Below are positions 11,555 to 37,753 of a stretch of DNA of 42,293 bases, piece after piece. The DNA is taken from assembly GCA_903905455.1 (NCBI GenBank), contig CAIVGN010000020.1, positions 1-42,293 on the forward strand. The letters are read 5' to 3'. The position numbers and the translations under genes are program-made. The DNA is from an uncultured Archangium sp. Lineage in GTDB: Bacteria; Myxococcota; Myxococcia; Myxococcales; Myxococcaceae. The number at the start of each line of letters is the position of its first letter. Position 1 is the stretch's first letter. The notes under the pieces are model-generated. The model was not told where the DNA came from, searched no databases, and saw only the letters and a program-made list of their open reading frames with translations.

Positions 11555-13351
11555 TCAAGGAAGCTTCAGTCGCAGCTTCACGTTCTCGCCGGAGGGGATG
11601 ACGACGGACCGGGTGACGTTGAGGTTCGCCCCCTCGTTGATCAGCACCAGTCGATGCGAGCCAGCGGACAGCCGCTTCTTGTTGATGGGGGTCGAGCCGA
11701 TGGGCTCGTCGTCCACCGACACCTTGGTCCATGGATCGGTGTCGATGGTGAGAAAGCCCGGCCCCACCGCGGTCACCTCGGGGACCTTCTGTGGCACCAC
11801 GGGCGCCCGGGTCGCCACCTTGAGGGCCTTGAGTTCGAGCGTCACCTCGCGCGACTCCCCAGGCTTGAGCACGAGTTCGACCTCCGTTCGCTCGAAGCCG
11901 CGGCGCTCGGCCGCCAGGTAGTGGGTTCCGTCCGGGGTGACCTCCAGGTGCTGCGGCGCCATTCCCAGTTGGCGGCCATCGAAGCGCAGCGCGGCCCCCG
12001 TGGGGACCGTCACCACCGTGAGCTGCGCGGCCGCAACGGGCACGGCGGGCGGCGACACCGCGGCGTCGGGTACGACCGCGAGCGCGACCGCGGCATCGGG
12101 CGCAGTCGCGTGTGGATCGTTCCGCACGGCGAGCGGCGCCACGTCGACCGGTGCCGGTCCACGGCCGACGAGCTGCGCCGCCGCACCCACCCCGAGCGCC
12201 AGCACCACGAGCACGCCCAGCAGCAGCAGCGGCCCCCGCTTCTTCGCGGGGGGGGCGGGGACCACCGAGACGGGGCTGCCGGAGGCGATCAGCACGCCCG
12301 TGGCCTCCGGCGTCGCGGGCTGGGCCATGCTGCCGGTCGAGAGATCGACCTCTTCGGACGGCGGCGGCTGGCGCTGGGCGAGGCTGATCACGAAGTTGTC
12401 ACTGGCGCCCGGCGGCGGGGCCGTCGAGACCTTGCTCTCGCCCGAGCCCAGTCGACGCATCAGCGCCGCGGGCGTGAGCCCCGGGGTCTGCGTGTCGAGC
12501 ATGGTGTCGAGCACCTCGGCGACCTCGGCCAGGGACGCGAAGCGCGCCTGGGGATCCAGGCTGATCATCCTCATCACCGCGTCGGCCAGCGCGGGCTGCA
12601 CGTCGGGCATGAGGCGGTCGGGCCGCTCGACGACGCCGGCCATCACCAGCTTGATCAGCTCGAGGTCGTTCTCCGCCTTGAAGAGCCGTCGGCAGGTGAG
12701 CAGTTCCCAGAACACGACCCCCAGCGCGTACTGGTCGACCAGCGGCGTCATGGGTTGGCTGTGCACCTGCTCGGGGGGCATGTAGGCCAGCTTCCCCTTG
12801 ATCATCCCCGTGGCGGTGCGGGTCGAGCGGTTGGCCGCGCTGGCGATGCCGAAGTCCACCACCTTGGTGACGCCGTCTTCGCGCAGCATGATGTTTTGCG
12901 GGCTGATGTCGCGGTGCACGATGTGCAGCGGGCGACCGCTCGCGTCGTGGGCGTTGTGGGCGTGGTCCAGGCCGAGCGCTGCGTCGCGGATGATCCTCGC
13001 CGCGACCTGCGGGGGGATGCGCTGCTGCTGCTCGATGGCCCGGCGCATCAACTGCGACAGGTTGCGCCCGCTGATGAACTCCATGGCGATGTAGAAGGTG
13101 CCATTCCACAGGCCGACTTCGAAGATGCTCACCACGTTGGGGTGGTTGAGGGTCGCGGCCACGCGCGCCTCATCGAGGAACTGGTCGACCAGGTCCTTCT
13201 GCTGCGCCAGGTCGGGCAGCAGGCTCTTCAAGATGACCGGCCGCTCGAAGCCCGAGACCCCCCGCTGAACCGCGGCAAACACCTCGCCCATGCCCCCGAT
13301 GGCAAGGCGGTGCTGGATCTCGTACTTGCCGAAGATGAGCGTGCTGGTCAT
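11555..13351 (-). CDS. Membrane-anchored Ser/Thr protein kinase with PEGA repeats
   Basis: A 598-residue PknB-like kinase. The kinase domain (about 8-275) has IGGMGEVF (18-25), Lys42, HRDISPQN (Asp148), DFG (167-169) and YMPPE. A Pro/Ser-rich juxtamembrane linker leads to one transmembrane helix (about 383-404, LLLLGVLVVLALGVG). The outer part contains two PEGA-type beta domains: about 442-508 (VPTGAALRFDGRQLG...) and about 531-598 (TDPWTKVSVDDEPIGSTP...). PEGA domains are common in myxobacterial surface and regulatory proteins; here they would sense an envelope signal or partner. The gene is convergent with the other kinase and starts 21 bp after the stop of the long ELWxTDGT/HYR gene, so it is likely the last member of that long transcription unit. 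Confidence 0.93.
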   Translation of the reverse strand: MTSTLIFGKYEIQHRLAIGGMGEVFAAVQRGVSGFERPVILKSLLPDLAQQKDLVDQFLDEARVAATLNHPNVVSIFEVGLWNGTFYIAMEFISGRNLSQLMRRAIEQQQRIPPQVAARIIRDAALGLDHAHNAHDASGRPLHIVHRDISPQNIMLREDGVTKVVDFGIASAANRSTRTATGMIKGKLAYMPPEQVHSQPMTPLVDQYALGVVFWELLTCRRLFKAENDLELIKLVMAGVVERPDRLMPDVQPALADAVMRMISLDPQARFASLAEVAEVLDTMLDTQTPGLTPAALMRRLGSGESKVSTAPPPGASDNFVISLAQRQPPPSEEVDLSTGSMAQPATPEATGVLIASGSPVSVVPAPPAKKRGPLLLLGVLVVLALGVGAAAQLVGRGPAPVDVAPLAVRNDPHATAPDAAVALAVVPDAAVSPPAVPVAAAQLTVVTVPTGAALRFDGRQLGMAPQHLEVTPDGTHYLAAERRGFERTEVELVLKPGESREVTLELKALKVATRAPVVPQKVPEVTAVGPGFLTIDTDPWTKVSVDDEPIGSTPINKKRLSAGSHRLVLINEGANLNVTRSVVIPSGENVKLRLKLP

Positions 13352-13372: not shown

Positions 13373-16300
13373 CTACTCCCCGAAGTCAGTGAAGGGAATC
13401 ATGACCAGCGAGGTTGCGCCAGCGGCACCTGTCGCGATCCAGCCCACGTTGGCCAGCAACGCGAAGGTGGTGCCCCGGTTCCGCACGGCCACCAACTCGG
13501 CCCCCGGGCGCCCGGCGAGCGCGCCCTGTTGGTAGGCGCGTTCCTCGAAGGGCACCGCCAGCGCGAAGCCACCGGCGGCGAGCGCGAAGAGCACCGTCAC
13601 CACCGTCGAAGTCCAGAACGCAGCGCGCGAGAGCGGCTTGTAGCGGGCGACCTGCGTGGCTCCAGCGCTCAGGCGCACGGACTTCGGTTCGCCCTCGGAG
13701 CCGAGCATCAGCAGCGGGCCCTCCCGGTCGACGGTTCGCACGAAGTACTCCAGCGTCAACCCCTGGTCGTTGGCGGTGAAGTCGGCGGGAATGAGCCCTT
13801 TCCACACCCCGGTGTCGCTGCGTTCCAGGTTGAGCGTCGAGAACCCGTGCTGACCGGCCTTGCGGTACGGCACCTCGACCCCGTCGACCACTCCCTGCGG
13901 GTCGCGCAGGCGCCACGAAAAACGCAGGGGCTGGCCGCCGACGGCCTGGGTGGGGGCCTCGCCGATGAGGCTCAGGTTGGCGATCAACCTCTTGCGCTCG
14001 ACCTGCCGCATCGTGGCGTTGAGGGCGCGTTCTTCGCTCTGCACCTTGCGGAACACGGCGAGGATCTTCGGCGAAGTGGTGTCGGGCAACTCGTAGGTCG
14101 GCCGCGCCCTGAGCAAGAGACGGAAGGGCTGCTCGGCATCGACCGGGTCCTCCACCACCGCCCGGGCACAGCCCTGGAGCCGGTAGGCCTCGACGCGCGC
14201 GTCGAGCGGAAGCTCGGGGCGGCCGAGGAGCTGGACGGTGGCGGTCACCACGCTCTCGTAGTCCAGCGCTTCGAACAGCCCCTGGATGCGCGCGACCTCC
14301 GCGGTCCCTGACAGCTCGACCGAGTTCGCCGCTGCGGGCGTCGCGGGCGTGGTGGGCGCCGCGAATTCGGGGCGTGCCGGAGCGCTGGGGGGCGGGCGCG
14401 GCGCCTTCGATTTCACCTTCCCCTTCGGGGCCGCTGCCGCCAGGCCCGGCAAGCACAGGACCAGGGCCAGCATCGGGAGGAGGGACCGGGCCTGCGTCCG
14501 TTTTCCCCCGGGGGAACGGCGGCGACGGCGAACCAGAGCGCCCAGCGCCAACACCGCGGCGAGGGCATCGGCTCCGCCCGCCTCGGTGCACCCACAGCCG
14601 GTGGGACGGAGCTTGGTGGTGGGCAGCACGGGGGCCTCCAGAGCGGGCGGACGGACGATGACGTGGAACCGGCAAGTCGACTGGTGCCCGGCGCTGTCGG
14701 TGGCCGAGGCACGCACCTCGGTGGTGCCGACTGGGAACACGCCCAGGCTCGGGGTGATGACCAGGGTGGGGGCCGGGTCGACGGTGTCCGTGGCGCTCAC
14801 GTCGAGCGACAGGGCCGCGCCGCCGTCGAGCGTCTGGTCGACCGTGCGGTCCTCGGGGCAGGTCAGGACCGGCGCCGTGACGTCGCGCTTGAGCACCAGG
14901 CTCGCTTCGCCCTGCCCACCCGAGGAGCGGACCCGGCAATCGAACTGCAGCGTGCCCTCTTCGAGCACCGCGCCGCCGTCGCAGCCACTGAACTCCAGCA
15001 GCGGCGAATCGGGGTCCTCCGCGTGAAAGGTGACCACGGTGTCGCCGACGTACCATTCGCCCTGCCGGGGGCCGGTGACCTCGACCTCGACGCGCGGCGG
15101 GGTGTTGTCCAGGGCCGAGGGGAGCAGCCACACCCACGGCTCGCGGTCATCGTCGGTGTCGGTCGCGGCGAAGACGAGGCGCGTGCCCACTTGCGCGGGG
15201 GCGCCCGGCCACGAATCGAGGCGGCCGAGGGCGATGTCGGCGACCGGGCCGGCGTCGAGGCCGTCGCTGGTCCACAGCTCCTCGCCGGCATCGGAGCCGG
15301 CGGCAAAGGCCACTCCATCGCCCAGGGGCGCCAGCCACGGGGGCGTGGCGCTCGGCCAGTGCCGCAGCTCGCGCGTGCTGGCGGCGGTGCCGGTGGTCAC
15401 CCACAGGGAGCGCACGCCCAGATCATCCAGCACGAAGAACCACTGGTGCAGGGTGGCCTGGGCCAGCTCGAACCTGCGAGCGCCCAGGGGCAGCAACTCG
15501 ACGGTGCCCGTCGCGGTGCCGTCGGTGAAGGCCACCACCCGACCCGAGGGGGTGAGCGCCGTGAACAACAGTTGCTGCCCGCGGGCCGCGCGAGGCGTGG
15601 GGTTGGAGCCCGCGGCGCCCGGCATCAGGTCGGCGACCCGCAGCGTCCCCGCGGCCGTGCCGTCGGTGCGCCACAGCTCGGCGCCTGTCACGCCGTCATC
15701 GGCAGCGAACCACGCGAGCTCGCCCGAGGACACCACGCTGGAGGGGGCACTCGAGCCCGGGCCCGCCACGAGGTCCTTGATCAACCGGGTGCCCCCGGCG
15801 CTGCCGTCGGTGAACCAGGGCTCGAGCCCACTCACGCCGTCATCGGCGAGGAAGACCAGCCCACCTTGCAGGGCCGCCAGCGCCGTCGGCGCCGACGACA
15901 CCGGCCCCTCCCTCACGTCGCGGACCAGGTGCGTGCCTTCCGCCCGACCATCGGTGCTCCACAGCTCACGGCCGAAGTCGGCGTGGTGGGCGGTGAAGAA
16001 GACGGTGGTGCCGGACCGCACGAAGTCTTCGGGCGCAGAGGAGCGCCGGCCCGGCTCGAGGTCGACCCGCTCGGCGCCCCCGTCGGCGCTCGGCAGCAAC
16101 CACAGTTCGCGGCCGACGGTCCCTTCGTCCCACGCGAAGACCAGCCGCTCGCCCACGGCGATCGATGCGCCCGCGGAAGCGGGGCCGCCCTGGAGCCAGA
16201 CATGGACACCGGCGTCGAGCACGTCGACCGTGAGCAGCGAGACCGACGCGTCGGGCGCCGTCGAAAGCAGCGCCACCTCGCCGGTGAGCGCGACGAGTTG

Positions 16301-17647
16301 CCGTGGCTCAGAAGGGCTGGTGCCAGGGTTCAGGTCGACCACCGCGCTGCCGGCGACCGTGCCGTCGGACAGGACCAACTCGGCCGGGTAAAAGTTGGAG
16401 GTGTCGCGGGCGAGGCTCATGGACACCGGGCCGGCGAGAAACCGCTCGGTCGCTTCGGCCTGGGCCCCCGGAAACACCGCGCTCGAAAGCCCCAGGTCGA
16501 ACGTCCCGGCGGGGGTCCCATCCGTGCGCCAGAGTGCTTGTTGAGTGCCTCCCCCGGCCCTGGCCCAGAAGTAGGTGAGGGGCCCGCTTTGTCTCGCGAT
16601 GAACCTGGGCTCGCTGGACATCGACCCGTTGGCGTTGGCGAGTTGCGTCAGCCCGCCGTCGAGTTCGACAATCCAGGGCTCGTCCTCCTCACCCGTGCTC
16701 GCCAGGCCCATCAACAACCGGCCGGCGTTCACGGCGGTGCTCCCGAAGATACTGAACGTCGTACCGATGGAACGCTGGGTCCCACTGGTCAGATTCAGCA
16801 GCGAGACGGGATTGCGAGGGGGGGAGTACGTCATCACCACAGCCTGGTTGCCCGTGGCGGCGCGCACGGACTGACCCGCGGCCAGTTGGGTCGAGACCAG
16901 AGACACGCCCGCAGTCGAGTCGTACACGTACAGTTGCCCCGCTTGAGAATCAAACAGCACGCGGGTGTCGCTCAACGGCCATGCCACTGCACTGGGGATT
17001 TGCGGAATCCGCGCGATGGTTTGGCCGTCGAAAGACAACCAGCCGGTCGCGGTCGGTAGCGAGGCTGGCGCATTCCGGATCAGCAGTGAATTCCGAAGCG
17101 TGACGGCATTCCAGTTGTAGCTCGCGGTCGGCAGCGGTCTCGCCGTCAGGCTCGAGCCCGAGAGTTCGAGCAACTGACAGACCAACACAGAGAGGACGGG
17201 GTCGAGCTGGCATTGACTGAAGAAGCCACGAGTGCCGACGCTTCCTCCAGGTTTGAAATAGGATTGCCCCGCCCCCAGGGGCCCCGCCGGCGGTGTGAGG
17301 CTCTGCGTACCGGCATCGGCGCGAAACTCGAACAACTGCGGCGCGCTGCTGTAGTCATAGAGCTGAAAGACAGTCGCTGCGGGGCTCTCCACCAGCACTT
17401 CGAACCCCACGACACTTTGCCCGCTGGTGACCCTGCGGGTCGTCTGCGCCGTCCCAGAGGTCAACCACATCTGGGTGCCGAAGCGATCGTTGGCGAGGAA
17501 CCCGATGTCGTCGCCGAGGCGCACGAAGCTCCCCGGCAAGGAGCTGCGCACCGCCTCCTGCGTCTGGAGATCGACCAACCGTGCGACCTGGGCGTTTGCC
17601 GTCAGGGCCGCGACCCACACCAACACCCCTGCGAAGCGCGACTTCAT
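13373..17647 (-). CDS. ELWxTDGT-repeat/HYR secreted protein fused in frame to a second exported protein
   Basis: A 1424-residue open frame that looks like two proteins. Part 1 (1-1045): signal peptide (MKSRFAGVLVWVAALTANA), a long beta-propeller-like region with repeats such as RELWSTDGRAEGT, LEPWFTDGSAGGT and AELWRTDGTAAGT, an HYR domain (about 930-1010, from TAPVLTCPEDRTVDQ), then a MYXO-CTERM-like tail: Cys1018-Gly-Cys1020, a hydrophobic helix and five Arg. Part 2 (about 1046-1424): a second signal-like segment (KRTQARSLLPMLALVLCLPG), a Pro/Ala-rich linker, a helical TPR-like region (EALDYESVVTATVQLLGRP), a beta domain, and two C-terminal hydrophobic segments. Part 2 resembles the secreted partners often beside PEGA kinases, as here. 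No stop separates the parts; an in-frame ATG at 14473 could start part 2 independently. The start overlaps the kelch gene stop (ATGA). Confidence 0.75.
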   Translation of the reverse strand: MKSRFAGVLVWVAALTANAQVARLVDLQTQEAVRSSLPGSFVRLGDDIGFLANDRFGTQMWLTSGTAQTTRRVTSGQSVVGFEVLVESPAATVFQLYDYSSAPQLFEFRADAGTQSLTPPAGPLGAGQSYFKPGGSVGTRGFFSQCQLDPVLSVLVCQLLELSGSSLTARPLPTASYNWNAVTLRNSLLIRNAPASLPTATGWLSFDGQTIARIPQIPSAVAWPLSDTRVLFDSQAGQLYVYDSTAGVSLVSTQLAAGQSVRAATGNQAVVMTYSPPRNPVSLLNLTSGTQRSIGTTFSIFGSTAVNAGRLLMGLASTGEEDEPWIVELDGGLTQLANANGSMSSEPRFIARQSGPLTYFWARAGGGTQQALWRTDGTPAGTFDLGLSSAVFPGAQAEATERFLAGPVSMSLARDTSNFYPAELVLSDGTVAGSAVVDLNPGTSPSEPRQLVALTGEVALLSTAPDASVSLLTVDVLDAGVHVWLQGGPASAGASIAVGERLVFAWDEGTVGRELWLLPSADGGAERVDLEPGRRSSAPEDFVRSGTTVFFTAHHADFGRELWSTDGRAEGTHLVRDVREGPVSSAPTALAALQGGLVFLADDGVSGLEPWFTDGSAGGTRLIKDLVAGPGSSAPSSVVSSGELAWFAADDGVTGAELWRTDGTAAGTLRVADLMPGAAGSNPTPRAARGQQLLFTALTPSGRVVAFTDGTATGTVELLPLGARRFELAQATLHQWFFVLDDLGVRSLWVTTGTAASTRELRHWPSATPPWLAPLGDGVAFAAGSDAGEELWTSDGLDAGPVADIALGRLDSWPGAPAQVGTRLVFAATDTDDDREPWVWLLPSALDNTPPRVEVEVTGPRQGEWYVGDTVVTFHAEDPDSPLLEFSGCDGGAVLEEGTLQFDCRVRSSGGQGEASLVLKRDVTAPVLTCPEDRTVDQTLDGGAALSLDVSATDTVDPAPTLVITPSLGVFPVGTTEVRASATDSAGHQSTCRFHVIVRPPALEAPVLPTTKLRPTGCGCTEAGGADALAAVLALGALVRRRRRSPGGKRTQARSLLPMLALVLCLPGLAAAAPKGKVKSKAPRPPPSAPARPEFAAPTTPATPAAANSVELSGTAEVARIQGLFEALDYESVVTATVQLLGRPELPLDARVEAYRLQGCARAVVEDPVDAEQPFRLLLRARPTYELPDTTSPKILAVFRKVQSEERALNATMRQVERKRLIANLSLIGEAPTQAVGGQPLRFSWRLRDPQGVVDGVEVPYRKAGQHGFSTLNLERSDTGVWKGLIPADFTANDQGLTLEYFVRTVDREGPLLMLGSEGEPKSVRLSAGATQVARYKPLSRAAFWTSTVVTVLFALAAGGFALAVPFEERAYQQGALAGRPGAELVAVRNRGTTFALLANVGWIATGAAGATSLVMIPFTDFGE
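14430..14600 (-). other. Internal MYXO-CTERM-like tail joined to a second signal peptide
   Basis: Within the 1424-residue frame, codons 14596-14588 encode Cys-Gly-Cys, followed by a hydrophobic helix (ADALAAVLALGALV), RRRRR, and then immediately a basic stretch and a second hydrophobic signal-like core ending in a run of Ala. A C-terminal sorting tail should be the last thing in a protein, so this is either a genuine fusion through loss of a stop codon or an assembly/sequence error at the CCCCCGGGGGAAAA run near 14503-14516. A one-base shift does not bring an early stop in either other frame, so a lost stop by substitution is more likely than a simple indel. Confidence 0.7.
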
Positions 17648-20600
17648 GGCGTCCCCCCGTCGCGGCGCCAGCGCAGTGTGTATTCGACCCCAGACGTCGA
17701 GAGCTGGGCCTCTCCCGTGCCGTTGACCCCGGCCGAGGTCGCCCCGACGGTGAAGGTGGCCACGAAGCCCCCGTCAGCGGTGCGTAACGAGCGCTCGAGG
17801 TCGGCGAGTTCCCGGTTCTCATAGGCCACGACGGTGTGGGCGTTGGTGGTCCCCGCCGCCCCGACGGAAGCCGGCACCGGCATCAAGGCGCGCGTCGACG
17901 ACGAACCCTGCAACAAGACGAGTCCGGCGAGCGATCCGCCATCTGGCGCGCTCCCCGAAGCGCCGCCGCGCCAACGCACCGACGACGCGAGTACCCGGGC
18001 GTCGCCGGGCATCGCCGAGCGGGTGAGGGGAACGCCGAAGGCTTGCACCGGCTGTCCTGCAGAGAAGTCGAGCACCTGGGTGAACCAGGCGGCGTAGCTG
18101 GGCCACACCACCTGCCTGGACTGAGGGTCGAGCACGGCGTCGCACGTGGACAGGTTCAACGTCGGCACTTTCTTGAAGCGCCAGGTGGCGCCTTCGAGCG
18201 TCGCGATCTGGCCGTCGCCCAACGCCAGGGGGGCGCCCGAGAAGGGGTGCTGGGTCAGAGCCCCATAGCCACTGGGCCGGCCCACGCCCTGACTCTCGAA
18301 GGCCGGCAGGGGCCCCAGCCCGGCGCTCCAGTGCGTGTCGAATCGGTACTGCTGTCTGCTGGTCACCAGCACGCTCTGGTGCGTCGGGGCGTCGGCCAGC
18401 CAACGCTCGGTGGAATAGGGAGCGAGGTCGCTGAGCAGTGTAAGAAAGGTAGGTCGCGCGACCGCAGGCCCCACTTCGAGCAGGTGCCAGCCGACCTGGT
18501 CCAGGGCCCACGTTTCGTCCGAAAGTCCGCCGTCTGGGCGGAAGCCGCCATGAAGCAGGAGCCTCCCGTCGTCCCACCGGGCGTAGGAGCCGCTGTAGGT
18601 GGAGGCTCCTCCGGAAGGCAGGGACGAAGTGGTCCACCCTCCGTCGGGGCTCCAGCGAGCCTGGGTGCGTTGGTCCATGGCGTAGAGCGGTCCGTTCAGG
18701 ACCGAACCCCCGTCCAGGAAGCGCACGGCGTCGGAGACCACGAGCTCGCGGCTGGAAGGGTCCCAGCCCAACCGCCCGCCGGCAAACAGAGGTGTGGAGG
18801 CCGTCGCGGGCACGGTGGTCCAACGCCAGTCCTTCCAGAACGCCATCGGCTCCTGGGTCATCGAGATGAACGCCGTGCAATCGTCCTCTCCACAGATGGC
18901 GTCCGTCTCGCTTCCGCCAGCGGCGACGACGGCGCCGAGATCGGGCTGGTACCCGAACGCCACCGCGGTGGGCAGGTAGAGGGCGACCGAGTTCAGGACG
19001 GGCACCCACGCATCATTCTTGAACACATACATCGGAGGACTGTCGGCACCGCCATCGAAGGGGGCGGTGTCGCCCCACAAGAGGGTGCCCGTGCCGGGGT
19101 GTTGGAGCAGCCGCCCGCCCATTCGCCCGACGTAGGCCCCTGCGTCGATCTCCCGCCACTGCGACCCGTCGTGGACCCAGGTGTCCTGCGCAGCCACTCC
19201 GCCATGGAGCAGGCCGCCGGCGAGCAGCACGCGGTTGGTCTTTCGGTCCCAGGCGAGGCTGGCACCGGCGCGCGCCGGGGGCTGGGGACCGCCGAGTTGC
19301 ACGAAGCCCCCATCTTCAAAGGCCCAGGTTTCACCGGACGTCACCCCGGAGGCCACGCCCCCGAAGATGAGGAAACGCTGGCGGAGCGGGTCGAAGGCCA
19401 TCGCCTGTCTCCCGCGCGGGGGCGGCTGGGGGTTGGCCACCGGCGTAACCGTGGTGCCGTCAAACCAGAGCCCACCACCCAGCGGGATTCCCGCGTCGGT
19501 CTCTCCTCCCAGGATGAGCGCGCGGCCGCCACCGATGGCGATGGCAGGCCACCACCGCTCGGCCCCCGCCAGCCCTCCATCTCCCAGTGGAAGCCCCTGG
19601 CCCCCACCGACGCAGACGCTGCCCAGCCGGGGGTCAAAGGCCTGTGCCTGGTGGGGGAAAAGACATGGAGAAGAGTTGGAGGTCGGATCTTGCAGGTTCT
19701 GACCGTCGACCCAGAAGCTCCTGCCGATGAAGCCATACCGCCCGAGCTCGAACATGGCGTTTGGGGCGAATGTCTCCGCGTGGTTGGGTTGACGAACCAC
19801 CACGCCGCCGCTCGTCACCCAGCGCCGCTCCGCGGTGATGTCCGGGGGTTCCGCGGTGACGTGCAACGGGTCGTACACCCCCGCCTGGAACAGCGTGCCC
19901 GCGTCAGCCTGCAGCGCGGAGATGATCCACTCGACTTCGAGCACCTCGGCCAGCGGCGACTCGTTGCCGGCAGCGTCGATGGCCCGCAGCGCCACGGTCG
20001 GGGCGTCGCCCTCGAGGCGGAGCGTGATGAGGAAGCTGCCGTCGGGGTTCACGCGCGCGCGGCCCACCGGGTATACGCCGGAGATGGCGGCCACGGCCAC
20101 GGAGCCCAACGCCGCGCCGGGCTCCCCGTGCACCTCGTAGAGAGGTGCGTCCGACTCGAGGGTGCCCCAGGGCGCGCGGCGGTAGACGACCGCCCCCGGC
20201 ACCGAGAGGGCCGGGGTCGGGGGAGCGGTGGTCCGCACCTCGAGCGACGCGCCGTCGAGCGCCGCGGCGTTGCCCACCAGGTCGGCCGCTTCGATGCGCA
20301 GCGCATACCGGCCCTGGGCCACGTCACCGGGCAACACCGCGGTCGCCTGAAAGCTCTCGCCCAGGGCCGTCACCGTACACGCGACGCCCGCGTCTTCGCC
20401 CAGCAGGGACACTCGGGGCAGCCCGGTGACGAGCTCGCTGAGGCGGAAGCGGGCCTCGAGGGTGGAGCCCGCGCGGCCAGCGGTGAGCAGGTCGGGGTAG
20501 CCGTCGATCACCAGGGCGTTGTCTTCGGTGGCGAGCACCCGCAAGGTCGTGTCCAGCGCGCTGGGCGCCGTGAAGTCGAGCTCGAAGGCGCCCACCTCGA

Positions 20601-21051
20601 CCAGGTTGACCACCGCCTCCCCAGCGCCGGGTTTGACGCTGACGAACACGCGATGCCGCCCCTCGGGTTCGGCGCCGGTGGCGGTCCACGCCCAGCGCCC
20701 CAGCTCGAGGTCGAAGGTGAACGTGGCCACCTGGGCCCCGGCACTGTCGAGCGCGACCGCCGTGAGCTGCGCGGCGTTGAGCGCCCCCGTCGAGAGCTGA
20801 AACGAGAACACGTCGCCGGCCCGACCGCGGGGCGGCTTGACCGGTGTCGTCACCACGAAGGGCGAGTTCGCCGCGACGCATACCTTCAACTGCGCGTCGC
20901 ACTGGTCCGTCGTCGGGCAATCACCGTCCGCCTCGCACGGCACGCGCGCCCCGGCAGGCAACGACTCGTCGAAGCGACACCCGGCCAGGGAAAGAGGAAC
21001 CAGAACGCACACCGTCAGCCCAAAGATCAACCGACTTTGCGTCGTGCCCAT
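17644..21051 (-). CDS. Kelch-repeat lipoprotein
   Basis: A 1135-residue lipoprotein: signal MGTTQSRLIFGLTVCVLVPL with lipobox SLAGC (Cys25), followed by a small Cys-rich motif (CEADGDCPTTDQCDAQLKVC) common in myxobacterial lipoproteins. Then come Ig-like beta domains (about 60-370, for example PSALDTTLRVLATEDNALV and the RIEAADLVGNAAAL strand) and a kelch-type propeller (about 480-900), with blades such as GGGRALILGGETDAG, RQRFLIFGGVASG and TNRVLLAGGLLHGG followed by TWAF or TWVHD. Kelch propellers bind other proteins or glycans; no enzyme site is evident. The ATG at 21051 is chosen because the frame upstream is an overlapping reading of the glycosidase gene. The stop overlaps the next start (ATGA), so it is translationally coupled to the ELWxTDGT/HYR gene. 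Confidence 0.88.
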   Translation of the reverse strand: MGTTQSRLIFGLTVCVLVPLSLAGCRFDESLPAGARVPCEADGDCPTTDQCDAQLKVCVAANSPFVVTTPVKPPRGRAGDVFSFQLSTGALNAAQLTAVALDSAGAQVATFTFDLELGRWAWTATGAEPEGRHRVFVSVKPGAGEAVVNLVEVGAFELDFTAPSALDTTLRVLATEDNALVIDGYPDLLTAGRAGSTLEARFRLSELVTGLPRVSLLGEDAGVACTVTALGESFQATAVLPGDVAQGRYALRIEAADLVGNAAALDGASLEVRTTAPPTPALSVPGAVVYRRAPWGTLESDAPLYEVHGEPGAALGSVAVAAISGVYPVGRARVNPDGSFLITLRLEGDAPTVALRAIDAAGNESPLAEVLEVEWIISALQADAGTLFQAGVYDPLHVTAEPPDITAERRWVTSGGVVVRQPNHAETFAPNAMFELGRYGFIGRSFWVDGQNLQDPTSNSSPCLFPHQAQAFDPRLGSVCVGGGQGLPLGDGGLAGAERWWPAIAIGGGRALILGGETDAGIPLGGGLWFDGTTVTPVANPQPPPRGRQAMAFDPLRQRFLIFGGVASGVTSGETWAFEDGGFVQLGGPQPPARAGASLAWDRKTNRVLLAGGLLHGGVAAQDTWVHDGSQWREIDAGAYVGRMGGRLLQHPGTGTLLWGDTAPFDGGADSPPMYVFKNDAWVPVLNSVALYLPTAVAFGYQPDLGAVVAAGGSETDAICGEDDCTAFISMTQEPMAFWKDWRWTTVPATASTPLFAGGRLGWDPSSRELVVSDAVRFLDGGSVLNGPLYAMDQRTQARWSPDGGWTTSSLPSGGASTYSGSYARWDDGRLLLHGGFRPDGGLSDETWALDQVGWHLLEVGPAVARPTFLTLLSDLAPYSTERWLADAPTHQSVLVTSRQQYRFDTHWSAGLGPLPAFESQGVGRPSGYGALTQHPFSGAPLALGDGQIATLEGATWRFKKVPTLNLSTCDAVLDPQSRQVVWPSYAAWFTQVLDFSAGQPVQAFGVPLTRSAMPGDARVLASSVRWRGGASGSAPDGGSLAGLVLLQGSSSTRALMPVPASVGAAGTTNAHTVVAYENRELADLERSLRTADGGFVATFTVGATSAGVNGTGEAQLSTSGVEYTLRWRRDGGTP

Positions 21052-21143
21052 TTCAGCCCAGTTAAACTCAGGGACGCCTCCCGTGGAAAGGGACTTGCGC
21101 GCAGTCGCCTGCGACGAGCGCCACGCTTGGCTGACCTCGAACG

Positions 21144-23687
21144 TCAGCGCGGTTCGACCACCAGCACCGCGGCCTGCAGCGCACCCACCGGTACCTGCAG
21201 CGCTCCGGCCTGCAGCTGCGCCCCGGTCAGCGTGGTGGCAAAGGCTCCGCGCAGCGCCTCCTTCACGGTGTAGCCGGTGGTCGACACGAGCCCCAGGGCG
21301 GCCAGGTCGTCCACCCGCACGGTGACGGTCGAATTGACCCCCAGGTCGTTGAGCACGAAGACGTACACCCTCGCCGCCGAGCGCCGTGCCCACGCCAGGT
21401 GCCGCCCATTGCCCGTCACCAGCAGGGGGCGCTCGCCGGCGAGCCCGGCCACGGAGCGGGCCAGGGTGTTGGCTCGCGCCACCTCGTCGTTGGGCAGCGC
21501 GTAGTAGTCGTCCTGGTTGAAGCGCGTGGCCACGTAGGTGCCGAGGAAGACCCGCTTCTTCACGCCGTCTTCCACCAGCCAGCCCACCTCGTCGCCGTTG
21601 CTCCCGGTCAGCGCCGTGCGCTCGTAGAGCAGGGGGGTGTGGGGCCCCTGCGGCGCCCACTGGCTCTCGTACCAGAAGCTCTCGGTGGGCCCCGCGAGCC
21701 CCGGCACCGCGCTGTTCACCTGGCCACCGCGCGACGGGCCCAGCCACTGCCAGCTGCCGGCGGCGTTCGCCGGGTACAGGCCCGAGAGCGCGCTGGAGGC
21801 GGCCGACACCCGGAAGTCGTCGGACAGGCGCCCCGGCCAGAGCATCGTCACCAGCAAGCCTCCGCCCTGCGCGTAGCGCGTGAGCTTGGCGGCCGTGGCG
21901 TCGTCCTGGAAGTCGGGGTTGAGGAAGAACACCGCCCGGTAGGTCGCCAGCTCGGCGTCGGAGGTGAGCTGCACGTCGAGCACCTCCGGAGCCAGGCCGG
22001 CCGACACCAGCCACCCGAAGACCGCCGGTTGCTCGATGGTGGCCAGGCGCTGCATCGAGTCGTCGAGGCCCCCCTGCGGAGCGCCCCAGGCGGCGTTGGT
22101 GAGCACCGCGACGCGGTTGTTCACCGCCCGCGCGCCCAGCAAGTCGGTCCCGTAGCGCGAGAGGAACTGGCCCCAGCGCTTGATGACGTCGTAGCGCGGC
22201 GTGGTGGCCCCGGCCCGCGTGATGGCCGCCTGGTAGTCGTAGGCGGAGTTGTCGAGGTTGAGCCCGTCGCGCATGACGTAGAACGCGCCGCCCTTGAGGC
22301 CCCGGCCGATGGAACGCGCCAGCAGCGCCTCGGTCGCCTCGGGCATCACCGTGGGCGCGCCGACGACCGGGAACCCGAAGAAGCCGCCCTGCAGCTCGGC
22401 GGCGTAGACCCAGTCCTGGGGGCCGGTGGCCAGGTCGGCCTCCTGGTCGAAGAGCCGCGTGAAGTAGTCGGCCTGGAACGGCTGGTCCTGCACGGAGTCG
22501 TGGCTGGGGTCCTGCCGGGGGTAGAGGTCGAGCCCGCACGCGCCCCCCGAGGCATTCTTGGTGCGCCCGTCGTGCACTTGCGTCTCGTGCAGCACCAGGT
22601 CGCCGGCCAGCAGCGCGAAGGGCGAGTCGTTGGTGAAGAAGAGGACGTCGGGCTCGCGGAACCCCTCGTCGTTCATCAGGCCTCGCAGCGTGCGCAGGTA
22701 CTGGGCCACCCAGTCCTGTCCTGCCCAGTACCAATCGGCAGCCCACGGGTTGTCGGCGCGGGCGTCGGTCGCGCCGGGGGTGCTCGTGGGAGGCGGCACG
22801 TCGGCGAAGCGCGCGTGGTGGGTGCCGTAGCGCGCGTTGAGCGCGTCGATGGAGCCGTACTTCGCCTCGAGGAAGGCCCGGTAGTGGTCCAGCGCCACCG
22901 GGTGGTAGTCGGCGCTGCCGAAGTGGCTGCCCCAGTAGAGGTTGGTCTCGTTGTCGACCTGGAGCGCGATGAGGCACTTGCCGAGGTAGGGCTTGAGCCT
23001 GGGCAGCACCTGCGCGTACCAGCCGCGCGTGGCCTCGAGGAAGGTGGGGTGCTGGAGGCTGGGCTGGGCCTGGTCGGCGGCGCCGGTGGGCGAGAACGAG
23101 AAGGGCGCGCCCGAGGAGGTCAGCGCCAGCGCCTCGGGGTGCGCCTGCTTCCACCAGGCGGGTACCGCGCCGAAGGTGCCAAAGCCCCGCGGCCACTCCC
23201 CGGTGATCAGCGGCCCGGGCTTGGCCACCACCCAGAACCCGCGCGCGCAGGCCAGGTCGAGGAAGCGGCTCACGTCGCGTGCCCCGGAGAAGTCCCACTG
23301 GCCCTCGCCGCTCGAGTGGTAGTCCCACGGCAGGTACGTGGTGACGAGGTTCATGCCCGCGTCGGCCATCAGGTCGAGCGACTGGGCCCACATCGCCTCG
23401 GTGGCCGCCGGGTCGAAGTCCGGCGCGCGCACGCGGAAATAGTGGAGGTCGCCGCCGTAGAGAAACGTGGGCTTTCCGTCGATGAGCAGCGCTCCGCCGC
23501 CGATGACCACGTGCGGGACCCGGACCCCTGCGTCAGCGGTGCCACCGTCGGCGGGGTCGCCGCCACCGCTCCCGGCGTCGCGGGTTCCTGCGTCGAGGCC
23601 CGCATCGTCAAGGGACACGGGCGGGGGCCCGCAGGTGCACCCCCCCAGCGAGCAGATGATGGCGGTTGCGACGAGGAGCCTGGGCAT
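21144..23687 (-). CDS. GH35-like beta-galactosidase lipoprotein
   Basis: An 847-residue predicted glycoside hydrolase anchored as a lipoprotein (lipobox SLGGC, Cys17) with an Asp/Ala/Gly-rich linker (DAGLDAGTRDAGSGGG). The TIM-barrel start DGKPTFLYGGDLHYFRV, then MNLVTTYLPWDYH, GQWDFSGARDVSRFLDLA and VVAKPGPLITGEWPRGFG, is the pattern of GH35 beta-galactosidases. The likely acid/base is Glu247 in ALQVDNE and the likely nucleophile Glu431 in VYAAELQGG. Beta-sandwich sequence fills the C-terminus. The enzyme should act on extracellular or surface galactosides or related glycans. GH42 or another related clan-A family is possible. The ATG at 23687 is chosen because it starts the signal peptide; the frame is open 75 bp further upstream. 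Confidence 0.87.
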   Translation of the reverse strand: MPRLLVATAIICSLGGCTCGPPPVSLDDAGLDAGTRDAGSGGGDPADGGTADAGVRVPHVVIGGGALLIDGKPTFLYGGDLHYFRVRAPDFDPAATEAMWAQSLDLMADAGMNLVTTYLPWDYHSSGEGQWDFSGARDVSRFLDLACARGFWVVAKPGPLITGEWPRGFGTFGAVPAWWKQAHPEALALTSSGAPFSFSPTGAADQAQPSLQHPTFLEATRGWYAQVLPRLKPYLGKCLIALQVDNETNLYWGSHFGSADYHPVALDHYRAFLEAKYGSIDALNARYGTHHARFADVPPPTSTPGATDARADNPWAADWYWAGQDWVAQYLRTLRGLMNDEGFREPDVLFFTNDSPFALLAGDLVLHETQVHDGRTKNASGGACGLDLYPRQDPSHDSVQDQPFQADYFTRLFDQEADLATGPQDWVYAAELQGGFFGFPVVGAPTVMPEATEALLARSIGRGLKGGAFYVMRDGLNLDNSAYDYQAAITRAGATTPRYDVIKRWGQFLSRYGTDLLGARAVNNRVAVLTNAAWGAPQGGLDDSMQRLATIEQPAVFGWLVSAGLAPEVLDVQLTSDAELATYRAVFFLNPDFQDDATAAKLTRYAQGGGLLVTMLWPGRLSDDFRVSAASSALSGLYPANAAGSWQWLGPSRGGQVNSAVPGLAGPTESFWYESQWAPQGPHTPLLYERTALTGSNGDEVGWLVEDGVKKRVFLGTYVATRFNQDDYYALPNDEVARANTLARSVAGLAGERPLLVTGNGRHLAWARRSAARVYVFVLNDLGVNSTVTVRVDDLAALGLVSTTGYTVKEALRGAFATTLTGAQLQAGALQVPVGALQAAVLVVEPR

Positions 23688-33427: not shown

Positions 33428-36400
33428 TCAGCGGCGCACGCGACGACGGGCCATCGCCCCGAGCAGCACCATCGCCAGCCACCCGGCGCCGGGCACCGAG
33501 GTGCAGCCACAGCCTGTGCCGTCCATCGTCGGCTCGAGGCCGGCGTCGGCCGACATCCCTGCACCGCCGTCGCCCGCGAGGCCTGCGTCGGCCGAGCCCG
33601 CGTCTGCGGCCGAGCCTGCGTCATCGGTCGAGCCCGCGTCATCGGTCGAGCCCGCGTCATCGGTCGAGCCCGCGTCATCGGTCGAGCCCGCGTCATCGGC
33701 CGAACCCGCGTCATCGGTCGAACCCGCGTCATCGGTCGAGCCCGCGTCAGCCGTCGAGCCCGCGTCCAGGGCCGAGCCCGCATCGCCAGTGGCCCCCGCG
33801 TCGGTGATGCCCGCGTCGACCGCCGTCACCACGCACGCGCCCACCGTGCACACCCCGGCACTGCCGCCGCAAGCGAGCCCTTCGCGGGCAGGGGAGGCGC
33901 CGGCGCAGAGGCCTGCGCTGCATGCCCCGACACCGGTGCACACGTCCCGGTCGACACAGGCCACCCCGGCGTGGGCCACCGCGGCGACGCACGCACCGGC
34001 GGTACAGGTGCCGGTCCCCGTGCACGCGTTGCCGTCGTCACAGGCCTGGCCCTCGTTCACCGCGAGCCCGGCCTGACACGCCGAGCCCACGCAGCGCCCG
34101 GCGCCGGTGCAGGCGTTCCCGTCGTCGCAGCCCGCGCCCTCCGCGAGGTCGAGACCGCAACTCGGTACGAACTCCAGCCCGGTGAGCGATGCCGTGCCGG
34201 CCGTCGCGGTCGCCACCACCGTCGCCGGTCCCGCGGGTGTCGCAGGCACCGCGCACAGCACCGAGGTGTCCGTGGCCTTCACCACCACGCACGGGGCGCC
34301 CGCGATGGTGAACGTGGCCTGCGCCAGCCCCACGCCCTCGAGCGTCACCAGCGTGCCGCCGCGCGTCGGGGCCGAGCGCGGGAACACCGAGGTCAACTCC
34401 AGCGCCGGCGAGTTCACCGTCAGGGCGTTGCTCGACTGCCCCGCCACCGTGAGCTGCACCGACCTCGTGCCCACGCCAGCCGGGAGCGTGCACCTCACCA
34501 CCGCGTGCGTCCGAGCGACGATCGGGCACATCGCCGCGCCCACCATCACCGTGGGGGTCAGCCCGAAGTTCGCGCCCGACAGCGTCAACACCGCGCCCGC
34601 CGTCACCGGGTTGGGCGACACCGAGTTGAGCAGCGGCGCCGCGAAGTCGAGCGCTGCGCTGGCGCTCGCTCCCGCCACCGTCGCCTGCACCGTCACCCCG
34701 AGGCCTTCGCCTTCAGGCAGCGTGCAGGTGAGGCTGGTGTGGTTGCTCGCCAACCCGGTACACGCGCTCGTGCCCACCAGCACCGAGGTCGCCGCGCCGG
34801 AGCCGAAGTTCGTGCCCGCCAGCGTGAGCACCGTGCCTCCCGCGGTGGGCACCACGCTCGGGGTGACGCCGCTCACCGTGGGCGTGCCGTAGACGTACGT
34901 CGACGACGCGGTACTTCCCGCGCGCGTGAGCACCACCGGCACCGAGCCGCCCACGCCCGCAGGCAGGGTCACCAGCACCACCCCGTGCGACCACGCGTTC
35001 ACCGTTGCCGACAGCCCACCGATGGTCACCGTGCCGCTCGTGCCGAAGCTCGACCCGCTCAACGTCACCACGCTGCCCCCGGCGGTCGAGCCGCCCGTCG
35101 GCGCGAGCGAGCTGATCACCGGCGCGTCGTAGGTGAAGGTGCCCGCGCTCACGGTGGTCGTCCCGCGCGTCAACTCCACCGGCGCCGCCCCCACGCCCGC
35201 CGGCGTGGTGCAGCGGCGGAGCGCAGGCGTCGGAACTCCCGAGGTCGCGCACGCGCCGCCGCCCACGGTGATGGAGACGCCGGGGCGATCGAGCCAGCTC
35301 CCGGTGAGCGTGAGCGTCGTGCCCCCCGCGGTCGGTCCGCTCGTGGGGGTGAGGCTGGTCACCGCCGGCTCGAGGTACCCGACGGCCCTCACGTTCGAGG
35401 TCGCCGCGCCGACGCTCACCCGCACGTCCTCCTGCGTGACGGTGCCGTCAGAGCCCGGCGTCGAGGCGAGGACGATCTGCGTGTGCGTCGAGTTGGTCAC
35501 CACCGCGTTGCGCCCTCCGACGGTCACCACGGGGGTGAGTCCGAAGTTGGTTCCGCTCAAGGTGAGCGCTCCGCCGCTCCAGGGCAGCGACGTGGGCGTC
35601 AACGACGAGAGCGTGGGCGCGGAATAGGTGAAGGTCACCGGCATGGAGGTCTCGCTCCCGCGCTGCACCACGATGCTCGCCGTGCCCTGGCCCGCGGGCA
35701 TGGGGAAGATGAGCTGCCCGTCACGCACCGAGACGGGGGTCGTGGCGACGCCGTCGACCCAGGCCACGCCCGTGCTGCCGAAGCTCGTGCCGCTCAGCGT
35801 CACCAGGAAGCCGCCAGCGGTGCTGCCCCCGGTTGGCGAGAGCGCGGCGATGGCGGGGGCGTCGTAGGTGAAGGTGCCCGCCGACACGTTGCCGGGTTGC
35901 ACCACCACGGCCGCCGCGCCGGTGCCCGCGGGCGTGTCACAGAGCACGAGGGTCTGGCCTCCGTTGACCGACTGCACGGGGCAGGGCTGGCCACCGACGG
36001 TCACCCCCGGCGCCAGGCCGAAGTTGCTGCCCGAGAGCGTCAACCGCGTGCCCCCGCCCGCCGGGCCCCGACTGGGCGTCAGCGCGGAGACCGTCGGCGA
36101 GGCCCAGGTGATGGAGGCGGTCACCCCCGCCGGGGCGCTCGGCGTCGTCACCCGCACCACGCCGACCCCACCGCGGCTGGCCGGCACCAGGCAGCGCAGC
36201 ACCGTGTTCGAGGTGAACGTCAGCGGGCACGCCAGCCCGTCGAGGCTCACCGCCGGCGCGCTGCCGAAGTTCGCGCCGCTCAGCGTGAGCGTCACCCCGC
36301 CGGCCGTGGGCAGGTTCCCCGGCGTCAGCGCCGCGATGAACGGCGGGTCGTAGGTGAACGTCAGCTCGTTGCTGCGCTGACCTCCACCCTGGGTGAGCGC

Positions 36401-37753
36401 GACGGCCGCGGCGCCTTCCCCCGGGGGGGCCGTGCACCGCACCACCGTCGAGGTCTGCCCCACGAGAGGGCAACTGGCCGTGCCCACCGTCACCGCCACC
36501 GAGGGCGCGAAGTTCGCCCCGCTGAGCGTCAACGTGGTGCCGCCGGCCACCGGGCCACTCGCCGGCGTGAGCGACGAGAGGGTGGGTGGGTTGTACGAGA
36601 ACTGCAACGTGTTGCTGGTGACCCCGCCGAGCGTGGCGACCACGGGCACGTTCGCGCCGGCCCCCACGGGCAGGGTGCACCGCAGCACGGTCGAGGCCTG
36701 GCTCTGCACCACGCACGGCGCGCCGCCGACGGTGACGCTCGCCGGCGTGGCATCGAGACCCACGCCCGTCAGGGTGAGCGTCGTGCCGCCCGCGGTGCTG
36801 CCCGTCGCGGGCGTGAGCGCGCTGAGGGCCGCCGCGAGCCCGGGCACCAGGGCGGCAGGGCTGGCCTGGCCGGCCGCGGTGACCACGATCGAGACCTGCG
36901 CCGTCGATGCCCCCGGGCTGGTGCACACCAGCTGGGTGTGGCTGCTCGAGGTCACCGGGCAGCTGGCGCCTCCCACGGTGACGGTGGGCGGGGTGACGCC
37001 GAAGTCCGCGCCCGAGATCGTCAGCGGCGCACCTGAGCTCGGCGAGATGCTCGCCGGGGTGATGCCGTTGATGCTCGGCGCGAAGCGCTCCAGGCCCAGG
37101 CTGCCCAGCGTGGCCTGGCCCCCCGCGGTCACCGTGACGAGCTGCGAGGCACCTTCGCCTTCAGGCGCGAGGACCACCAGCTGGGTGTGCGTCTGCGAGT
37201 TGACCACCGCGGTGGCGGCGCCGACCCGCACCTGCGCGCCGCCAGCTCCGAAGTTCGCCCCGGCGATGGTGACGGCGGTGCCTCCCGCGGTCGACACGCG
37301 CCGGGGCGTGAGGCCCGAGAGCACCGGTGCCTGGAACGAGAAGGCGTTGAGCCGGGTGCCGGTAGTGCCCTCGCGGCTCGTCACGCTGGCCGTGAGGTTG
37401 GCGCCCGTGCCGGCAGGGACTGCGCAGACGATGGCCGTCTCCGACCAGCTCGAGGGGACGCAGCTCGACGCGCCCACCGTCACCGCGCCCGTGCCCTGCG
37501 CCGCGCTGAACCGCGCTCCCGTCAGCGTCACGGTGCCGCCCGTCGTCGGCAACGCCGCGGGGCTCACGCTCGAGATGTCGGGGACCCGGCACTGCGAAGT
37601 GTAGTCCGCGCAGCAGTCGCCGTAGGTGAGGCAGGCCGCGTCGCACCAGCAGCTCGTCGCCGGCCCCCCGCACTTCGCCGCACAGCTTTGCGCCTGGGCG
37701 GAGGTGGCCCACAACGAAGAGAGACACAGCCCGGCCACCAGGAAGAAGCGCAT
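33428..37753 (-). CDS. Giant secreted protein: somatomedin-B domain, 14 IPT/TIG domains, DAG repeats, MYXO-CTERM-like tail
   Basis: A 1441-residue surface protein. After a signal peptide (MRFFLVAGLCLSSLWATSAQA) comes a somatomedin-B-type domain with all eight Cys (24, 28, 35, 37, 41, 47, 48, 55; CWCDAAC and DCCADY). Then follow 14 tandem IPT/TIG Ig-like domains, each starting with a phrase like PTLSSLTPASGPVAGGTTLTL. A Cys-rich region contains the motif CDDGNACTGxGxC repeated, then a (D/S)DAGST hexapeptide array, and a C-terminal Cys-Gly-Cys, hydrophobic helix and Arg-rich end (AMARRRVRR), the sorting and anchoring signal of myxobacterial MYXO-CTERM proteins. It should be attached to the outer surface and act as an adhesin or matrix protein; ligand unknown. 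It is convergent with fba and starts 41 bp after the cysteine-peptidase gene stop. Confidence 0.93.
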   Translation of the reverse strand: MRFFLVAGLCLSSLWATSAQAQSCAAKCGGPATSCWCDAACLTYGDCCADYTSQCRVPDISSVSPAALPTTGGTVTLTGARFSAAQGTGAVTVGASSCVPSSWSETAIVCAVPAGTGANLTASVTSREGTTGTRLNAFSFQAPVLSGLTPRRVSTAGGTAVTIAGANFGAGGAQVRVGAATAVVNSQTHTQLVVLAPEGEGASQLVTVTAGGQATLGSLGLERFAPSINGITPASISPSSGAPLTISGADFGVTPPTVTVGGASCPVTSSSHTQLVCTSPGASTAQVSIVVTAAGQASPAALVPGLAAALSALTPATGSTAGGTTLTLTGVGLDATPASVTVGGAPCVVQSQASTVLRCTLPVGAGANVPVVATLGGVTSNTLQFSYNPPTLSSLTPASGPVAGGTTLTLSGANFAPSVAVTVGTASCPLVGQTSTVVRCTAPPGEGAAAVALTQGGGQRSNELTFTYDPPFIAALTPGNLPTAGGVTLTLSGANFGSAPAVSLDGLACPLTFTSNTVLRCLVPASRGGVGVVRVTTPSAPAGVTASITWASPTVSALTPSRGPAGGGTRLTLSGSNFGLAPGVTVGGQPCPVQSVNGGQTLVLCDTPAGTGAAAVVVQPGNVSAGTFTYDAPAIAALSPTGGSTAGGFLVTLSGTSFGSTGVAWVDGVATTPVSVRDGQLIFPMPAGQGTASIVVQRGSETSMPVTFTYSAPTLSSLTPTSLPWSGGALTLSGTNFGLTPVVTVGGRNAVVTNSTHTQIVLASTPGSDGTVTQEDVRVSVGAATSNVRAVGYLEPAVTSLTPTSGPTAGGTTLTLTGSWLDRPGVSITVGGGACATSGVPTPALRRCTTPAGVGAAPVELTRGTTTVSAGTFTYDAPVISSLAPTGGSTAGGSVVTLSGSSFGTSGTVTIGGLSATVNAWSHGVVLVTLPAGVGGSVPVVLTRAGSTASSTYVYGTPTVSGVTPSVVPTAGGTVLTLAGTNFGSGAATSVLVGTSACTGLASNHTSLTCTLPEGEGLGVTVQATVAGASASAALDFAAPLLNSVSPNPVTAGAVLTLSGANFGLTPTVMVGAAMCPIVARTHAVVRCTLPAGVGTRSVQLTVAGQSSNALTVNSPALELTSVFPRSAPTRGGTLVTLEGVGLAQATFTIAGAPCVVVKATDTSVLCAVPATPAGPATVVATATAGTASLTGLEFVPSCGLDLAEGAGCDDGNACTGAGRCVGSACQAGLAVNEGQACDDGNACTGTGTCTAGACVAAVAHAGVACVDRDVCTGVGACSAGLCAGASPAREGLACGGSAGVCTVGACVVTAVDAGITDAGATGDAGSALDAGSTADAGSTDDAGSTDDAGSADDAGSTDDAGSTDDAGSTDDAGSTDDAGSAADAGSADAGLAGDGGAGMSADAGLEPTMDGTGCGCTSVPGAGWLAMVLLGAMARRRVRR
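33600..33779 (-). repeat. Tandem 18-bp minisatellite (10 units) encoding the DAG linker
   Basis: Ten contiguous 18-base units, consensus GCGTCATCGGTCGAGCCC on the plus strand, occupy 33600-33779. Units 2, 3, 4, 5 and 8 are identical; the others differ at one to a few bases. On the coding (reverse) strand they encode a hexapeptide such as GSTDDA. The array is in frame, so gain or loss of units changes linker length without breaking the gene; such arrays vary between strains. Confidence 0.93.

Follow-up and report, generated by a model that had tools for sequence, protein, structure and literature searches.

Tails of the MYXO-CTERM type are cleaved in vivo by the myxosortase MrtX, and in the published model (PMC11980579) the protein is lipidated, then cut by MrtX at a point distal to the tail cysteine, and delivered to the cell surface via type II secretion. 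The same work describes tails away from the C-terminus as known exceptions and reports an internal MYXO-CTERM tail as rare, the case in point being MXAN_5598 of Myxococcus xanthus, for which the authors proposed a gene fusion with processing of the tail, together with processing at internal tags (Guo, Haft and Wall 2025, PMC11980579). The proteome list of M. xanthus outer-membrane vesicles also includes MXAN_5598, where it is entered as an OmpA domain protein. In the 42,293-nucleotide stretch of DNA analysed here (the window), from an uncultured Archangium sp., one reading frame encodes a tailed surface-type protein and a second exported protein. The order is that of the TraA-TraB operon (PMC3325183), in which the gene for a MYXO-CTERM surface protein precedes that for another exported envelope protein; that operon, however, consists of two cistrons with a four-base overlap and represents an unfused counterpart.

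The fused ORF extends over positions 13373–17647 on the minus strand, starts with ATG and encodes 1424 residues without an internal stop, and GC at the third codon position remains ~0.9 throughout the joint. The first signal peptide (MKSRFAGVLVWVAALTANAQ..., 17573–17647, minus) leads into half A (14600–17572, minus), which consists of ELWxxDGT repeats and a HYR domain (PF02494, residues 922–998) and belongs to the ELWxxDGT family TIGR04534 with 225.5 bits over seven stretches, the curated cut-off being 65 bits. Half A ends in an internal MYXO-CTERM tail (GCGCTEAGGADALAAVLALGALVRRRRR, residues 1017–1044, 14516–14599, minus), and a basic linker of 14 residues (SPGGKRTQARSLLP, residues 1045–1058, 14474–14515, minus), which may act as a cytoplasmic loop or as the n-region of what follows, connects this tail to a second signal peptide (MLALVLCLPGLAAA, 14432–14473, minus). 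This segment, MLALVLCLPGLAAAAPK, begins at M1059 (ATG at 14473) and ends at about A1072, with cleavage predicted between AAA and AP after residue 1072. According to the simple hydropathy and motif rule used for calling signal peptides in place of SignalP, it has the parts of a Sec signal (KRTQAR, LALVLCLPGL and AAA) and a core score of 2.81. The remainder is half B (13373–14431, minus), for which a structure model with a mean pLDDT of 81.5 predicts TPR-like helices, an Ig-like sandwich and a C-terminal TM hairpin after a Pro-rich segment.

The internal tail has the tripartite MYXO-CTERM form, GCGC followed by the hydrophobic helix ADALAAVLALGALV and RRRRR, and reached 21.4 bits in a whole-genome search with TIGR03901, whose curated cut-off is 20. 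It does not occupy the C-terminal location typical of these tails, as 380 residues follow it. A second tail in the window (33434–33520) terminates one residue past its Arg run, as usual; it is the normal terminal tail of a TIG-repeat protein with 14 IPT/TIG stretches (33428–37753, minus). The motif is short and 21.4 bits barely exceeds the cut-off, which leaves room for a chance hydrophobic segment that happens to end in arginines rather than a sorting signal. We nevertheless regard such a coincidence as scarcely credible, given that the GCGC motif, the helix and all five arginines are present, that the half it ends has relatives with the same tail and that genuine tails of this genome have similar scores. 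The first-pass annotation had described a tail in the middle of the ORF, a new signal segment directly after it and two exported proteins joined without a stop, and it was correct on each of these points: the tail scores above the curated cut-off, the signal segment lies where it was placed, and the frame is continuous across two halves that are separate in relatives. Its further suggestion, that a myxosortase-type cut and a signal peptidase cut would yield two mature products, is supported.

Relatives of half B with 34–55% identity are present in six genomes (G022, G018, G006, G002, G010 and G056). At complete loci they stand alone after an upstream stop, each with its own signal peptide, and those at two G056 loci (L065 and L069) have longer N-terminal regions and are likewise free of a tail fusion. 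A profile scan of genome contigs, for which a three-member alignment was used, found B unfused at eight named MAG loci, at least two of which are the G022 and G018 contigs. ELWxxDGT proteins elsewhere, when tailed, end at the tail (L036, L038, L040, L042, L052 and L059). Neither the 60 relatives nor the genome-contig scan yielded an orthologue of the whole A-B fusion, and the pair is unique to the source genome among those searched. Because B stands alone and tailed ELWxxDGT proteins end at the tail elsewhere, the fusion is, by this comparison of sequences, specific to the source lineage. A comparison of orthologues had been suggested earlier as a check on whether the halves are two genes, with homologues that are always one protein lacking an internal tail as the outcome that would count against two joined proteins; the halves are two genes in the relatives.

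The gene neighbourhood of B is partly conserved. In G002 and G010, a long kelch-type gene and B share four bases (NTGA), which hold the stop of the former and the start of the latter; a PEGA-type kinase gene follows B in G010, G022 and G006. The window retains the kelch gene, B and the kinase, with the ELWxxDGT gene encoding half A lying exactly between the kelch gene and B, so that the ATG of half A overlaps the kelch stop (ATGA) and the tail of half A runs into B. The kelch/Big_6 lipoprotein gene (17644–21051, minus) lies in a frame of 1915 residues (17644–23391, minus) that is too long; its start is probably at 21051 (MGTTQSRLIFGLTVCVLVPLSLAGC, residue 781 of that frame), with a LSLAGC lipobox. 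On the other side, the Ser/Thr kinase (11555–13351, minus) has a TM segment at about residues 374–392 and PEGA repeats. Half B itself gave no Pfam match and only generic Ig matches in Foldseek, and it forms a BLAST cluster of its own among the second halves described below. Judging from the modelled hairpin, half B would stay at the inner membrane next to the PEGA kinase, which is a likely signalling partner and a possible sensor partner.

A whole-genome search with the published MYXO-CTERM model, which is blind to downstream sequence, provided 30 loci for inspection. Twenty of these tails stop no more than about ten residues after the Arg run, one is an apparent false match and nine continue, and a signal-peptide-like segment directly follows the tail in all nine. 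When only tails that score above the curated cut-off are counted, internal ones make up 8 of 19 in the source genome compared with 3 of 58 in the complete genomes G119, G103 and G086 (Fisher p = 4e-4), a comparison that leaves out continuations without a signal peptide. The word 'rare' used in the literature therefore suits these three genomes but not the source genome. Two tails of one other genome (L278 and L324) are followed by >45 residues that contain no signal peptide; these were left uncounted. Within the source genome (G000, L070–L099), internal tails are mostly of the single-Cys type (GCSST or GCSAG, 6/9) and terminal tails mostly of the GCGC type (about 17/20), possibly representing two tail classes.

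A model of the nine joints was searched against 60 relatives, and a 48-joint model then against 195 genomes of the phylum. Many matches spanned both the tail and the second signal, and 91 of the 94 that were read are real joints. Together with the nine of the source genome these amount to 100 joints in 62 genomes and 14 families, most of them found by a joint-derived model, so that their uniformity is partly selected, while the first nine are free of this effect. Loci L147 and L192, at first counted as internal, and L258, at a later stage, were excluded for having no more than short tails. Of the 100 joints, 95% have a hydrophobic core that passes the test, compared with 7% of random stretches from the same proteins; since, in addition, every one of the long continuations in the source genome enters a signal-like segment, the joint after these tails is not a product of chance. 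The second signals end in an AxA-type site in 90 joints, a lipobox in nine and GFA in one (L223). Lipoprotein signals follow the tail at L150 (G029), with a trypsin-like second half, and at L260 (G028), as well as at L105 (G000:C198) and L144 (G005:C131), two species of the genus in which the signal (LSGC) precedes a VWA second half.

In 86 of the 100 joints, no ATG lies in the stretch from the Arg run to the second core, and in 33 this stretch has none of ATG, GTG and TTG, so that these 33 need read-through, barring initiation inside the core or at an unusual codon. The second halves fall into 19 BLAST clusters, three of which are short contig-end pieces. The biggest groups comprise 43 OmpA/barrel proteins from 35 genomes and, in 18 genomes, a 900-residue family, and VWA, trypsin-like, TIG and PD40 proteins are also represented; partners as unrelated as these argue for many independent origins. 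The tail-plus-signal joint is a recurrent architecture rather than a sequencing accident.

The start of half B deserves separate consideration. The ATG at 14473 coincides with the natural start position of stand-alone B proteins, and because a usable codon lies exactly there, half B may also be made separately. The window could accordingly contain two cistrons, with B initiated at this ATG and the intervening stop either lost very recently or absent because of a wrong base in the draft contig. In agreement with this, translation from ATG 14473 gives MLALVLCLPGLAAAAPKG, which is close to the start of the stand-alone protein L338, MLVTVGLVVTLQLAAAPPRGKAK; the junction is also less typical than most, with a longer linker (11 residues to the core against a median of 5), and the A-B pair was found fused nowhere else among the genomes searched. 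However, no Shine-Dalgarno-like stretch was found upstream of ATG 14473, and eight more joints of the same kind exist in the same genome. The two other frames also lack a stop near the Arg run, so that a single-base indel cannot give a normal ending, and an indel masking a stop was rejected as a simple explanation. Two separate cistrons are thus an unlikely, though not far-fetched, account of the window. A base error may be present at this junction of a draft contig, yet the architecture is independent of it.

Fused and overlapping states of related gene pairs coexist. At L094 of the source genome, the stop of the tail gene overlaps the start of a barrel/OmpA gene by GTGA; the product of the latter shares 44% identity over 477 aa with the second half of the L172 fusion, whose first half the L094 tail protein also resembles. 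An overlap of the same type occurs at L280 of G086, where the downstream gene has fused relatives (L163, L233, L242, L255 and L256, in G047, G078, G173, G038 and G080). An ORF starting with a signal-peptide-like segment begins near the stop in 13 of 46 terminal tails, a raw count that carries no chance control. The fused state probably arises by loss of the stop between tightly packed cistrons.

These features suggest how the fused protein might be handled. A gene for an ELWxxDGT surface protein, ending in a tail, and a gene for a periplasmic TPR/Ig protein would have come to share one reading frame. The joint would be a processing unit complete in itself. During export, transfer would stop at the tail helix, whose Arg cluster would stay on the cytoplasmic side; the hydrophobic stretch after it would insert back into the membrane and serve as a signal peptide, so that both halves come to lie outside. 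Cleavage by MrtX at the Cys side of the tail would direct half A to the cell surface, and a cut by signal peptidase I after AAA would release half B, which would be anchored by its C-terminal TM hairpin and is genetically tied to the PEGA kinase. The genome encodes MrtX, which carries the EExxxR and HxxxN motifs and scores 329.8 bits, well above the curated cut-off of 180. We infer this topology, both cuts and the final locations in this protein, and with them the release of two mature products.

The protein might instead remain uncut, with the tail helix and the second segment serving as a permanent hairpin anchor and both halves staying in the periplasm; two adjacent helices joined by an Arg loop would indeed form a stable hairpin. 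We judge this to be very improbable in view of the in vivo cutting of such tails by MrtX (PMC11980579) and of the many second halves that are OmpA/barrel proteins or carry a lipobox, both of which require removal of the second signal. The presence of lipoproteins and outer-membrane barrels among the second halves, sensible only if that signal is removed, argues strongly for the second cut. A polyprotein cut at the tail by MrtX and at the second signal by signal peptidase, as one case of a recurrent Myxococcota architecture, is in our assessment the probable interpretation of the fused ORF.

A broader proposal, to which we give an even chance, is that the pairwise production of envelope proteins as polyproteins is general among Myxococcota, with tail and signal forming a modular double-cut joint in which the Arg cluster doubles as an n-region. 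Such joints would have arisen many times with unrelated partners and been kept for co-production at a fixed ratio, or else because separable halves render loss of the stop nearly neutral, after which loss of the inner start makes the fusion hard to undo. If the joints are cut as expected, many surface and envelope proteins of myxobacteria that are currently annotated as single giant proteins are in fact pairs, and their predicted location, partners and function change. The joints would offer natural substrates for testing myxosortase on internal tails, and they mark the envelope partner of a surface protein, as TraA is marked with TraB.

Polyproteins are, to our knowledge, unusual in bacteria. 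One of them is the FbcH cytochrome b/c1 precursor of Bradyrhizobium, in which the cut falls at an internal signal sequence; unlike the tail-plus-signal joints, it has no sorting tail and constitutes a single family instead of many. LPXTG proteins and a Haloferax ArtA substrate, as cited in PMC11980579, resemble the joints in that their sorting tags work away from the C-terminus, but different enzymes are involved. In the literature covered, a scope that does not extend to Haft 2024, no text came to light that presents the tail-plus-signal joint as a general architecture, and the sections of PMC11980579 consulted do not discuss the second signal peptide as a constant feature or the breadth of the arrangement. 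As far as those sections describe it, MXAN_5598 shares with the fused ORF an internal tail after a large N-terminal region and an exported second half in one frame; its second half is an outer-membrane barrel with OmpA, to which the TPR/Ig/TM second half of the fused ORF, with its link to a PEGA kinase, is unrelated. The rare internal MYXO-CTERM tail was known, and what appears to be new is the extent of the arrangement and the constancy of the second signal.
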